From the NCBI GenBank assembly GCA_030430725.1, contig JAUIKP010000136.1:1-8018 (forward strand): a DNA stretch of 8,018 nucleotides, read 5' to 3'. The notes below the pieces were generated by a model. The model saw only the letters and a list, made by a program, of their open reading frames with translations, made no database searches and was not told where the DNA came from. Positions 2,795 through 8,010 of the stretch are shown here, piece after piece. How positions within the stretch are numbered: position 1 is the first letter of the stretch; every line of letters starts with the position of its first letter. The position numbers were made by a program, and so were the translations under genes. Origin of the DNA: Nitrospiria bacterium. GTDB lineage: Bacteria > Nitrospirota > Nitrospiria > Nitrospirales > UBA8639.

Positions 2795-3568
2795 TTAAGT
2801 AGCCTGACCAATTTGGACAAGGGCCCATGAGGCCCAAAAATGCACATTGGGAGTCGGGTCGGTTTCCATGGCTTCTTTCAGGGCAAGCACATCCACGCTG
2901 GTTCCCAGTTTGCCTAAACGATACGCGGCTTCTGATCGCACACCCACGCTTGGATCTTGGAGAAGATGGGTGCGTAAAAACTGGAGTCCTCGGGGGTCGC
3001 CTAATTCACCGAGTCCTGCAATTGCGGATTGTCGAGTGAGGGAATCCGGACTTTCCAAAGCTTGAAGGTATACAGAATAGGAAAATGGAAATTCAAAGTG
3101 AGCAAGAGATTGGATAATGGTTCTTTGGGTGTCAATCGTGGAAATAGCGTAGGCTTCGGTTAACACTAGCAATAATTTCTCCTGCACAGTGGTCCGACCC
3201 AAGGCCAATACCACAGCCTGTTTGACTGAGTCGGATGGATCCGTAAGGTGCTGAACCAACGCAACTAAAGCCTTATCTGACAGGGAATCGGCCATCGTTC
3301 CCAAGGCCCACGCGCTTGATTGTCGAACCTGGTCGTCTGGATCCGACAATGCGAGAACAAGGGCTGGAATGCCCTGAGGGTCACCAATTTTCCCAAGTGA
3401 TAAGGCTGCGGTCCGTCTCGTATCAGACTGAGTATCTGTCAGCAGGGGAATGAGTCGTTCGGTGACGGTTTCAGCGGATTCAGGTGGAGATTCAATGACA
3501 CAACCCGTGAGCCCAAAGAAACAAAATGCACCGATAACGACAGTAGAAGGGATGTAGATTGGTAACAA
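2795..3568 (-). CDS. HEAT-repeat lipoprotein
   Basis: This protein of about 257 residues has a hydrophobic leader ending in a clear lipobox, L-T-G-C (Cys23), so the mature protein should be membrane-anchored outside the cytoplasm. The rest consists of HEAT-like (PBS lyase type) helical repeats. Clear copies are about 34-66 (D-T-R-R-T-A-A-L-S-L-G-K-I-G-D), 67-97, 101-128 and 166-225, each with the A-A-x-x-L-G-x-x-G-D type signature. The stretch 129-160 is degenerate. Such repeats normally bind other proteins and have no catalytic residues. It begins 7 nt after the TatA-like gene and is surely co-transcribed. The start is uncertain: TTG at 3568 gives a leader without positive charge, whereas upstream CTG codons at 3583 or 3589, overlapping the tatA end, would add His and Lys. 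No ATG fits. Confidence 0.85.
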   Translation of the reverse strand: MLPIYIPSTVVIGAFCFFGLTGCVIESPPESAETVTERLIPLLTDTQSDTRRTAALSLGKIGDPQGIPALVLALSDPDDQVRQSSAWALGTMADSLSDKALVALVQHLTDPSDSVKQAVVLALGRTTVQEKLLLVLTEAYAISTIDTQRTIIQSLAHFEFPFSYSVYLQALESPDSLTRQSAIAGLGELGDPRGLQFLRTHLLQDPSVGVRSEAAYRLGKLGTSVDVLALKEAMETDPTPNVHFWASWALVQIGQAT

Positions 3569-3575
3569 GAAAGGC

Positions 3576-4364
3576 TTATGCAGATCCAGAAGGTTCTTTG
3601 GGAGTCAGAGGTTCTTTTGCCACTTCTATGGAGTCCTGCATCTCTTTTTCGGCAGACTCAAGCTCGGCTTGAATGGTGCGCATTTGAGGATCAATCGAAT
3701 TTTTAATATCCGCCGCGGCATCCCGGAAGGTTCGTACGGCACTCCCAAGGCCCTCTCCCAATGATTGCATATCTCGTGGAGCTAATCCGGATTGCTGGGA
3801 AGCCTGGGCTTTCATGGCAGCTTGTTGAGCTTGGACGCGGGCCACAGCTTGTTTATTCACAACAGCTGCAGGTCGCTTCAGCACAGGCTTCGCTTGTGCA
3901 TTAGCCGGGAGAGCGGGGTATTGCCTGGAAGCCATAGGAGCTGGTTGCGCTTGCCTATCCTCCATGGACATCGGTGGGGGGGCAGACGGAGTTGTCGTCG
4001 TTTCAGGAGTACCAGAAGTCGCCGCAGATTTAGATGAAGGCTGTACCACCTCCGGTCCCGCTCCCTTGTAAAGTAACGCTGCAGTAGTTCCCGGTGTTTG
4101 TTCAGGACCAGGTTGGAATGGTTGATTTGTTGGGGTGCCTACCGGCGTGGTTGGTTGGGATTGATCCTGTCCTGGTTCTAGCGGTGTGGTTGGTGGTGCC
4201 TCATTGGGATCCACGGGCTGAGGTATATCGGCGACTTCTTTTTTAAAGCCTTTTAAGGCTTTCCCCACACCTTCTCCGATCTGCGGGAGCCGACCTGCCC
4301 CGAAAATAATCAAAATGATCACCAGAATGATCATGAGTTCAGAGAACCCCATGGTTCCGAACAT
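3576..4364 (-). CDS. tatA: TatA/TatB-family protein with long Pro/Gln/Ala tail and a second amphipathic-helix motif
   Basis: Residues 1-47 are a classic TatA/B start: a short periplasmic end, one membrane helix (about 7-21, with E9), the F-G hinge (21-22), then R-L-P-x-I-G-E-G and an amphipathic helix containing G-F-K-K-E. This family forms the protein-conducting part of the twin-arginine translocase. Usual TatA proteins have 60-100 residues; this one has 262. Residues 48-200 are low-complexity Pro, Thr, Gln and Ala. Residues 202-226 (L-G-E-G-L-G ... F-R-D-A-A-A-D-I ... D-P) closely resemble residues 29-53 (I-G-E-G-V-G ... F-K-K-E-V-A-D-I ... D-P), with 11 of 25 identical, followed by a charged helix. 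AAAGGG lies 8 nt before the ATG. No tatC is in the window. TatB-like function is possible. Confidence 0.88.
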   Translation of the reverse strand: MFGTMGFSELMIILVIILIIFGAGRLPQIGEGVGKALKGFKKEVADIPQPVDPNEAPPTTPLEPGQDQSQPTTPVGTPTNQPFQPGPEQTPGTTAALLYKGAGPEVVQPSSKSAATSGTPETTTTPSAPPPMSMEDRQAQPAPMASRQYPALPANAQAKPVLKRPAAVVNKQAVARVQAQQAAMKAQASQQSGLAPRDMQSLGEGLGSAVRTFRDAAADIKNSIDPQMRTIQAELESAEKEMQDSIEVAKEPLTPKEPSGSA

Positions 4365-5564: not shown

Positions 5565-6317
5565 ATGGTCAAACCTATCATTGGGATTACACCGGATTTT
5601 AACCCTGGAAACCGAAAGGACATGGGTGGGAAAGAACCCACCTATTTTTTGCGGGCCAGGTACCTTCAGGCAATTCAGGACGCCGGGGGAGTGCCCATAG
5701 TGCTTCCCCTGGTCCGTGGCCTGGCGAAACAGACATATCTTTTACAGCGGTTGGACGGTCTTCTGGTCACTGGAAGCGGGTCGGATTTAGCTCCTGAGTT
5801 GTATAAGGAGAAGCAGAGATACCCTTTTCAGCGAATGAGCGAAGAGCGCGCCCAACTTGAGCTTGGATTATCCAAGTTGGCCTTTCGTCAGGGGCTACCG
5901 ACGCTGGGAATCTGCGGAGGTATGCAATCCATGAATGTGGCCTTGGGAGGAACCCTGGTACAGGATATTTCCTCTCAATTGTCGACGAAAATTGAACACC
6001 GTCCCAACAAATCGGCAATCAAAACTGCCCATCTGGTTGACATTGAACCCAACAGCTTACTTCAGCGCATCGCGAAGCGGTTAAGTATTGCGGTGAATAG
6101 CTCCCACCATCAATCTATCAAATCTGTTCCGTCGTCCTTTCAAGTTACTGGTACTGCTCCAGACGGAGTCATTGAAGCGATTGAGGCCTCTCGCCATCCA
6201 TTCTGGCTTGGGGTCCAATGGCATCCGGAGTTTTTATACCGGCACGACCCGATTCAGAAACGTCTATTTACTGCATTGATACGATCCGCCAGGGATTTTG
6301 CCGTCAGCCGAACATAG
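5565..6317 (+). CDS. gamma-glutamyl-gamma-aminobutyrate hydrolase-like class I glutamine amidotransferase
   Basis: The 250 residues match the PuuD / peptidase C26 family in length and motif order: I-I-G-I-T-P-D near the start, the L-V-T-G-S-G-S-D loop (67-74), the nucleophile elbow G-I-C-G-G-M-Q with Cys117, then N-V-A-L-G-G-T-L-V-Q-D-I, S-S-H-H-Q-S (179-184) and Q-W-H-P-E-F with His220 and Glu222. C117, H220 and E222 form the expected triad. The family cleaves gamma-glutamyl amide bonds, in E. coli releasing GABA from gamma-glutamyl-GABA in putrescine breakdown. No other putrescine gene is nearby, so the substrate here is unproven. Many members have G-I-C-R-G; here it is G-I-C-G-G. Ribosome binding is weak. 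The terminator overlaps the stop codon. Confidence 0.9.
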   Translation: MVKPIIGITPDFNPGNRKDMGGKEPTYFLRARYLQAIQDAGGVPIVLPLVRGLAKQTYLLQRLDGLLVTGSGSDLAPELYKEKQRYPFQRMSEERAQLELGLSKLAFRQGLPTLGICGGMQSMNVALGGTLVQDISSQLSTKIEHRPNKSAIKTAHLVDIEPNSLLQRIAKRLSIAVNSSHHQSIKSVPSSFQVTGTAPDGVIEAIEASRHPFWLGVQWHPEFLYRHDPIQKRLFTALIRSARDFAVSRT

Positions 6318-6398: not shown

Positions 6399-6806
6399 TT
6401 ACGGAGCCGGGTCTTTGGCTTCGGGAGCTGGTTGTGGGGGATCCGATAGAGCCGGTGATTTGGGTGTAGGGGGTTTGGTCTCTTGTGTGGGCACTGCCTT
6501 GGCTGCAGGAGGAGTGGCGGGTTTTGGAGGAGGCACGGGTTTGGGCTTTTCGGGCTTAATGCCACCTTCCCAATGAGGGCCTGTATACATATCGTCGGTC
6601 AAGTCCGTTTCTTTCCATCTGGCTTCAAAGTCTGCGGCGGCTTTATTGGGGGTTTCTCCTGTTCCAACAGTTTGATTCCACGGATAGATGCGGGGAGATA
6701 TCCGGCAGGTAGACTCATCCTGGCACATGTACAGTGCAATCGGATTTCCTCGATAAGGGCCCAGAATAATATGGACCGTGCCGACTAATTCAGGAAGAGA
6801 ATCCAT
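6399..6806 (-). CDS. hypothetical protein with Pro/Lys/Ala-rich tail
   Basis: The protein of 135 residues has two parts. Residues 1-82 look like a small folded domain (V-H-I-I-L-G-P-Y near the start, Cys28 and Cys34, then T-P-N-K-A-A-A-D-F-E-A-R-W-K-E and D-D-M-Y-T-G-P-H-W-E-G-G). Residues 84-135 are a Pro, Lys and Ala tail without structure. There is no signal peptide. The ATG at 6806 is the only usual start after an in-frame stop (TAG) about 30 nt upstream, yet no Shine-Dalgarno precedes it, which leaves the start open. It lies 159 nt after the PsiE gene and may have its own promoter, which I could not place. It is not recognised, and whether it acts in the cytoplasm is inferred only from the lack of a leader. 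Confidence 0.6.
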   Translation of the reverse strand: MDSLPELVGTVHIILGPYRGNPIALYMCQDESTCRISPRIYPWNQTVGTGETPNKAAADFEARWKETDLTDDMYTGPHWEGGIKPEKPKPVPPPKPATPPAAKAVPTQETKPPTPKSPALSDPPQPAPEAKDPAP

Positions 6807-6965: not shown

Positions 6966-7445
6966 CTATTTGGTGAGAAGAGGTTCTGCCGGGAGCTCGG
7001 ATTTTCGGTGAAGATATAATGCGATCATAAGGACCAAAATCACGATGACATGTAAGGACATATCCATGAGGTAATGACGAAACATGTCTTCAGGGACAGA
7101 TTCCTGATGCGAGAATTCAGCCCCAGCGGTGAGAATTCTTCGGACAGAAGCGATGATCCCCACATGGAGGAAGGGTTCGAGTCGAATTCGGTCGTTTTGC
7201 AAGAAACCTAAGACCGTGCGAAACAATTCCAAAAGTATGATGACGAACAACAGGTCATTCAGTAAAGCGATGGTTGCTGGCAAAAACTCGGTCTGTACCG
7301 ATTGGGCGTAGGCGACCCAACTATAACCGAAGACCAGCATGCCCACGAGAAGAAAACTCAAGCAGGCGGTGATGTAGCCCCACCGGTCGAGGAACTGCAT
7401 CCAGCGGACCCATTGTTTAATTGATTCTGGTGTCCACCCTAACAT
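6966..7445 (-). CDS. PsiE-family (phosphate-starvation-inducible E-like) membrane protein
   Basis: From the ATG at 7445 the protein has 159 residues, close to the usual PsiE-like length. Hydrophobic helices lie at about 24-47, 57-81 and 130-147, with a further semi-hydrophobic segment at about 92-106. The family core is visible as E-L-F-R-T-V-L-G-F-L (73-82) followed by V-G-I-I-A-S-V-R-R-I-L (95-105). It should sit in the inner membrane. The name comes from induction in E. coli under phosphate starvation, and the molecular function is unknown. A longer in-frame start at 7532 would add 29 polar residues overlapping the upstream gene, and is rejected. GAGG lies 12 nt before the chosen ATG, a rather long spacing. 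The gene follows the desulforedoxin-like gene by 16 nt. Confidence 0.8.
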   Translation of the reverse strand: MLGWTPESIKQWVRWMQFLDRWGYITACLSFLLVGMLVFGYSWVAYAQSVQTEFLPATIALLNDLLFVIILLELFRTVLGFLQNDRIRLEPFLHVGIIASVRRILTAGAEFSHQESVPEDMFRHYLMDMSLHVIVILVLMIALYLHRKSELPAEPLLTK

Positions 7446-7461: not shown

Positions 7462-7863
7462 TTATGCGTTTCCGTGATGTGGGGTGTTGGGGGTTTGCTC
7501 CTGATTGGTGTTCTCTCCCCGCATTTGACCAAACTCTAAACTCTGGATCGCTTTTGCCCCAAACGAATGGCCACAACAGATGACTTCCTGAAATCCTTGG
7601 CCGCCCGCCATGACCATTAAGCGAAGTCCACAGGAATCCGTTGCAACGAATTTCTCATCGAGGGGCATGCCGACTGCCAAGGCTCCTGCTCGTCGGCCAC
7701 GCTCTTGGTTGAACGAGGGAACCACGTCTTCCACGGTCAGGTCATGCCCGCAACATCGAATTTTTTCAAAGCCCTCCCCACCGCTCATCACCTTGAGTAC
7801 CAGTCCGCAAGAATCCGGAAACCGTTTGCGTTCGTCGATAATGTCCCCTTTTTTCAATGCCAT
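7462..7863 (-). CDS. duplicated desulforedoxin-like metal-site protein
   Basis: The 133 residues contain two copies, about 59 residues apart, of one unit: D-S-C-G-L near residues 17-21 and 76-80, V-M-S/A-G-G-x-G-F in the middle, and C-C-G-H at 37-40 and 96-99. The layout (C-G, hydrophobic strand, G-G-x-G turn, C-C-G) resembles desulforedoxin and the N-terminal domain of desulfoferrodoxin, which bind iron with C-x-x-C and C-C. Here the first Cys is missing in both copies (Pro16 and Thr75 at the equivalent place), and a His follows C-C-G, so each site has C19/C37/C38/H40 or C78/C96/C97/H99. Metal binding is inferred. The last 25 residues are polar. There is no signal peptide, so it is probably cytoplasmic. 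Confidence 0.7.
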   Translation of the reverse strand: MALKKGDIIDERKRFPDSCGLVLKVMSGGEGFEKIRCCGHDLTVEDVVPSFNQERGRRAGALAVGMPLDEKFVATDSCGLRLMVMAGGQGFQEVICCGHSFGAKAIQSLEFGQMRGENTNQEQTPNTPHHGNA

Positions 7864-7870
7864 AGCCATG

Positions 7871-7939: not shown

Positions 7940-7968
7940 TTTATACAGCAAGATTGGTAGCTAAACAA
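7940..7968 (-). promoter_or_regulatory. possible promoter for the desulforedoxin-like/PsiE operon
   Basis: On the minus strand TTGTTT (7963-7968), a 17-nt spacer and TATAAA (7940-7945) lie about 70 nt before the ATG at 7863. The -10 box matches 5/6 and the -35 box only 3/6. Confidence 0.4.
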
Positions 7969-8010
7969 ATCTTTGTAGGGAATGTCCAGAATTAGGCCAG
8001 GCCCTTCTGT

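Follow-up and report, generated by a model that had tools for sequence, protein, structure and literature searches.

Desulforedoxin, the textbook minimal iron protein, is a homodimer of 36-residue chains (1dxg, 1cfw; PF06397), and beside it stands the N-domain of desulfoferrodoxin, or 2Fe superoxide reductase (1vzg, 2ji1, 1dfx). In the class III superoxide reductase of Treponema pallidum, the consulted part of PMC3116461 describes an N-terminal extension without an iron centre. In the present study, we analysed TDx, a name coined here for the tandem desulforedoxin-like product of 7462..7863 (minus strand) in a window of 8,018 nucleotides, the window being one entire contig of a Nitrospirota genome bin; TDx receives no mention in the consulted parts of PMC8290217, PMC9714041, PMC13374858 and PMC3116461. 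We regard it as a probable new variant of the desulforedoxin fold, spread across the order and bearing a probable Cys3-Glu site. As a clue to what it does, its mutual exclusion with ammonia monooxygenase (AMO) is the most valuable.

A duplicated domain with a predicted desulforedoxin fold

Modelled alone, domain 1 of TDx gave an AF2 prediction with a pLDDT of 94.4 and the three-strand desulforedoxin fold. The six best PDB matches of this model in Foldseek were all desulforedoxin or desulfoferrodoxin, the desulfoferrodoxin N-domain taking ranks 2 to 6, and the model fits 1dxg over its full 36 residues at 1.6 A, so that the fold type suggested by the initial annotation agrees with the prediction. 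As in desulforedoxin, Gly-Asp begins strand 1, and a Cys-Gly precedes a hairpin and a Cys-Cys-Gly pair. TDx differs from it in lacking the first cysteine (Cys1), with a Glu at that place by register, in having a stretch ahead of the first retained Cys that is 5 residues longer and a hairpin that is 2 residues longer, and in carrying two domains per chain. The extension of the T. pallidum enzyme is fused to a catalytic domain, whereas TDx is standalone and duplicated and keeps three Cys; the catalytic FeHis4Cys superoxide reductase domain (PF01880) has no match in TDx and occurs in only 5 of the 235 genomes of the order. Neither PF06397 (12.6 bits, cut-off 23) nor NCBIfam TIGR00319 (8.1 bits, cut-off 36.05) reaches its threshold in TDx.

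The two halves of TDx are a duplication and not a product of chance, since hhalign matches the profile of copy 1 to that of copy 2 at 99.7% (E 6e-26) and all six cysteines are kept in 203/203 distinct homologues. D-S-C-G-L, V-M-x-G-G-x-G-F and C-C-G-H are present in both copies, and 18 residues separate the Cys from the first Cys of the pair in each, exactly as had been read from the sequence at the outset. The enclosing open reading frame lies at 7462-7869 (minus strand); the start is likely at 7863 (MALKKGD...), which is favoured by an AAGGAG 7 bases upstream and by the fact that most aligned homologues begin there. The C-terminal tail (7462-7530, minus strand) is modelled with low confidence, but its final G-x-A is conserved (G132 and A134 in alignment numbering, kept in 36/36 sequences), and the last residues look as if they were a recognition tag.

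Invariant residues and the predicted metal site

Conservation was assessed over 78 sequences (77 loci and the window) and 131 listed database proteins, giving 209 rows, 203 of them distinct, with a minimum identity of 52% to the window's TDx; L080 and L081, two of the 79 loci from the pattern scan, hold only parts and were left out. In each copy the Cys-Cys pair of PF06397 (Cys3 and Cys4) is present in 203/203, and the C-x2-C first knuckle is broken, Cys2 standing in 203/203 and Cys1 in 0/203. Where the C-x2-C spacing would place Cys1, three residues before the first retained Cys, copy 1 has P, Q, S or L and copy 2 any of ten residues, never Cys. No TDx domain supplies four invariant Cys for an Fe(SCys)4 centre, and a classical four-Cys desulforedoxin is ruled out by the missing Cys1. 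Because Cys1 is absent from both copies of every homologue counted, its loss is probably as old as the duplication or older, and here both the loss itself and its suggested age, as first annotated, stand.

The place of Cys1 is, however, not simply empty. Among the 44 columns common to both copies, six have an identical residue in every sequence and in both copies (E11/E70, C19/C78, G20/G79, G31/G90, C37/C96 and C38/C97), and E11/E70 is the sole one other than Cys or Gly (203/203 each). In the register set from the N-terminal Gly-Asp, E11 aligns with Cys9 of desulforedoxin, with an insertion of 5 residues between it and the first Cys retained. To call Cys1 lost was thus right as to the cysteine and incomplete as to the position, which by register holds an invariant Glu.

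Each TDx domain is likely, judging from these sequences, to form a one-metal Cys3-Glu site; we infer the role of the Glu, the metal and the function as follows. From a longer loop, Glu11 and Glu70 would serve as the fourth ligand in place of Cys9, and the metal would probably be iron, otherwise zinc. Since carboxylates bind more weakly than thiolates, the fourth arm would be a labile one, and a small molecule might gain access to the site or oxidation release its metal; this would make TDx a cytosolic redox or metal sensor or buffer and not a plain electron carrier. This reading as a whole, with two duplicated domains of predicted desulforedoxin fold that each hold a single metal ion by three invariant Cys and one invariant Glu, has in our judgement about an even chance of being correct.

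The initial annotation had looked instead to the His of C-C-G-H as fourth ligand. C3H zinc sites are familiar and the His is common (198/203 in copy 1, 180/203 in copy 2), but N stands in its place in 5 sequences of copy 1, and one of N, R, K, L and Q in 23 of copy 2, while the Cys and Glu stay constant, and the desulforedoxin residue aligned with it is, we take it, a non-ligand Glu beyond the Cys pair. The alignment of homologues, proposed at the outset as a check of whether Cys1 is always absent and the His invariant, bore out the former and not the latter; a three-Cys, one-His site is not supported as the defining feature, and we consider it improbable. We think no better of three thiolates binding Cu(I) or another soft metal in trigonal geometry, with the Glu in a structural role; TDx would then buffer copper or a soft metal, something that AMO-bearing cells, with their demand for copper, would not want. 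Such a site would suit the exactly three invariant Cys per domain and the absence of TDx from all 61 AMO genomes, and comammox Nitrospira and nitrite oxidisers do differ in copper homeostasis genes (PMC13374858 and PMC9714041, in the parts consulted); against it, desulforedoxin ancestry favours Fe or Zn, and none of the ten window proteins scanned with Pfam belongs to a copper family.

Slightly less credible still is a metal-free thiol protein, in which all three Cys, the vicinal pair included, would cycle via disulfides or persulfides. Some proteins do have redox-active vicinal Cys pairs; the core of the desulforedoxin fold, however, is built round its metal, and in TDx the three Cys are equally invariant and joined by an invariant Glu. 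A further point in favour comes from PsiE, the family of the neighbouring gene, a distant homologue of which (orf14) lies alongside Trx and KefB on the tLST stress island, which protects against chlorine, as stated in the consulted part of PMC8290217. Degenerate RING or treble-clef zinc domains related to Rtf2 seem to us highly improbable. PF04641 matches the window's TDx weakly (E 6e-4) and is listed for 35/36 relatives at an E limit of 10 (best 4e-4), but its 19.6 bits fall below the cut-off of 27.4. The string C-C-G-H-S-x4-A-h-x2-L presumably resembles a RING second knuckle and helix, although neither TDx model has a helix of more than 4 residues, and thus no RING-like helix, in which Rtf2 differs. 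The fold search with domain 1 puts desulforedoxin first and has no RING fold among its listed PDB matches, an unlisted family being still possible.

Taxonomic range and exclusion with ammonia oxidation genes

A pattern scan of one genome per species (84,980 species) yielded 79 TDx loci, all with Nitrospirota-type titles save L013 (Nitrospinaceae) and L043 (Nitrospinota), and the named relatives are mostly Nitrospirales and Nitrospira. TDx matches come from one Nitrospirota order only: 91 of 395 Nitrospirota genomes have a match, of which 89 belong to the window's own order and the two outside it are chance-like. Within the order TDx is found in 135/235 genomes and 34/37 genera, three of the 135 showing two matches, at least one of them partial. 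Canonical desulforedoxin domains exceed the cut-off elsewhere in the phylum in 66/295 genomes, one of these (G153) being TDx itself; within the order PF06397 does so in only 3/235, with 23.1-bit matches that all fall on TDx genes. The TDx of L013 and L043 show 73% and 52% identity, respectively, and these are perhaps misnamed bins. In other Nitrospirota, L113-L124, L126-L129 and L131 encode small proteins, often rich in Lys, whose C-x2-C ... C-C motif is desulforedoxin-like and whose hairpin is in several cases longer; these are perhaps further undescribed variants.

PF02461 (AMO) is present in 61 of the 235 genomes of the order, in the genera g7 (49) and g10 (12) only, and none of the 61 is among the 135 genomes with TDx (both together, 0/235); a further 39/235 have neither. 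Both AMO genera include TDx-positive species, 13 in g7 and 12 in g10. The NagZ locus (NagZ, PepA, QueE and HAD phosphatase being named by reading sequences, without family searches) was inspected in 35 genomes, 17 with AMO, 12 with TDx and 6 with neither, G187 being left out for want of a NagZ match. TDx and PsiE are absent from the fetched NagZ flank in 17/17 AMO loci, the flank of G105 being just 16 bp long. Directly after NagZ comes, in the 8 g7 AMO loci with flank, the counterpart of the window's 6399-6806 gene, hence TDx and PsiE are missing together; this counterpart was not seen within the 1.5 kb flank of 8 g10 AMO loci, so the arrangement there differs from that in g7.

A PepA + NagZ tree (34 tips, 16 with AMO; LG+G4+F, 1000 ultrafast bootstraps; G108 dropped for lack of PepA) was built, which describes two genes of one locus and is not a species tree. 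Its g7 AMO tips form two groups, one made of G326 and G105 (support 100), the other the main group, with 12 tips (85). They are separated by the TDx-positive G416, with support of 100 for G416 plus the main group and 95 for all three; g10, whose interior is poorly resolved (19-24), adds at least one TDx absence. The absences of TDx in AMO genomes fall on at least three branches of this two-gene tree. Five tips with neither gene (G212, G322, G177, G193 and G169) sit within the main AMO group and may be bins missing amo; in the sixth such genome, G406, the contig ends 218 bp past NagZ, too soon for a verdict.

We propose that TDx would be dispensable or unwanted in cells running AMO. Comammox-specific gene clusters include copper homeostasis proteins, and copper systems differ among nitrifier guilds, according to the consulted parts of PMC9714041 and PMC13374858, respectively. 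The exclusion could reflect shared ancestry only, comammox ancestors having lost TDx for other reasons, and this is a serious possibility, if short of an even chance: AMO genomes occur in only two genera, g10 is ill resolved, many genomes carry neither gene, and one loss with a regain in G416 is possible. Against it stand the TDx-positive and AMO-positive species in both genera without a single overlap, and the well-supported position of G416 between the two g7 AMO groups. The widest reading, by which TDx would be a new Cys3-Glu metal-site class, a sensor or buffer incompatible with AMO chemistry that was lost at least three times toward complete ammonia oxidisers and so marks nitrite-only Nitrospira, is put forward tentatively, as we rate it unlikely and below the explanation by ancestry.

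Genomic surroundings of TDx

The features are compiled in Table 1. The upstream element TGGACATT-N11-TTTGTTTAGCTA stands 125-136 bp before the start with 0-2 mismatches in 8/77 loci, being exact in four, window included, and its conservation extends to near relatives. In 12 further loci the closest match differs at 6-10 positions, and in the remaining 57 at 12 or more, among which are Nitrospira loci bearing a similar motif. It is a probable promoter or operator, which we take to resemble an ECF-type (extracytoplasmic function) promoter. A sigma-70 consensus scan did not pick it up, and the window's genome has no other site beyond control.

Table 1. Features of the TDx locus, in window coordinates
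Feature	Position	Strand	Remarks
TDx gene	7462..7863	-	133 aa + stop; tandem desulforedoxin-like protein
Copy 1	7711..7863	-	residues 1-51; AF2 model and Foldseek
Copy 2	7528..7686	-	residues 60-112; hhalign to copy 1
Glu11	7831..7833	-	invariant 203/203; predicted fourth ligand of copy 1, putative role, register from Gly-Asp
Cys19	7807..7809	-	first retained Cys of copy 1; 203/203
Cys37-Cys38	7750..7755	-	pair of copy 1; 203/203
His40	7744..7746	-	C-C-G-H of copy 1; H 198/203, N 5
Glu70	7654..7656	-	copy 2 counterpart of Glu11; invariant 203/203
Cys78	7630..7632	-	first retained Cys of copy 2; 203/203
Cys96-Cys97	7573..7578	-	pair of copy 2; 203/203
His99	7567..7569	-	C-C-G-H of copy 2; H 180/203
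Bipartite element TGGACATT-N11-TTTGTTTAGCTA	7958..7988	-	about 125 bp before TDx start
PsiE-family membrane protein gene	6966..7445	-	16 bp after TDx; PF06146 44.7 bits, cut-off 23.9

The gene after TDx belongs to the PsiE family, PF06146 scoring above its curated cut-off, and such a gene directly follows TDx in at least 62/102 loci, some genomes being counted twice under two locus ids; 5 further loci are too short, and the 62 are a lower bound because the sequence of L045 is given as N at this place and L033 provides 619 bp. Where it follows, TDx and PsiE may act together. On the other side, with 4 loci excluded for their short length, a PepA/NagZ cluster gene ends at most 1.7 kb upstream on the same strand in 68/73 loci, the distance exceeding 1 kb in 8 of the 68; none lies within that distance and strand in L027, L059, L067, L071 and L078. 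Farther upstream, QueE-like genes occur in 61/80 sequences and HAD-like genes in 53/80. In the window's own genome, NagZ lies terminally on contig C162, and this contig overlaps the window end.

The remaining neighbours include the conserved gene at 6399-6806 (minus strand), with a Pro/Ala-rich tail and no Pfam match, which adjoins NagZ in g7 genomes without TDx and PsiE; a Peptidase C26 protein at 5565-6317 (plus strand), whose gene cluster is represented in 49/80 sequences; and a TatA/B/E-type protein with a long Pro/Gln-rich tail at 3576-4364 (minus strand), followed by a HEAT-repeat protein at 2795-3568.

Implications

If the proposed site is real, the order-wide exchange of a Cys for an invariant Glu would be a natural test of how a ligand affects metal choice and redox potential. 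The exclusion with AMO, in turn, raises the question of which part of ammonia oxidation renders TDx useless or harmful, for which copper demand, hydroxylamine and nitric oxide are candidate causes.
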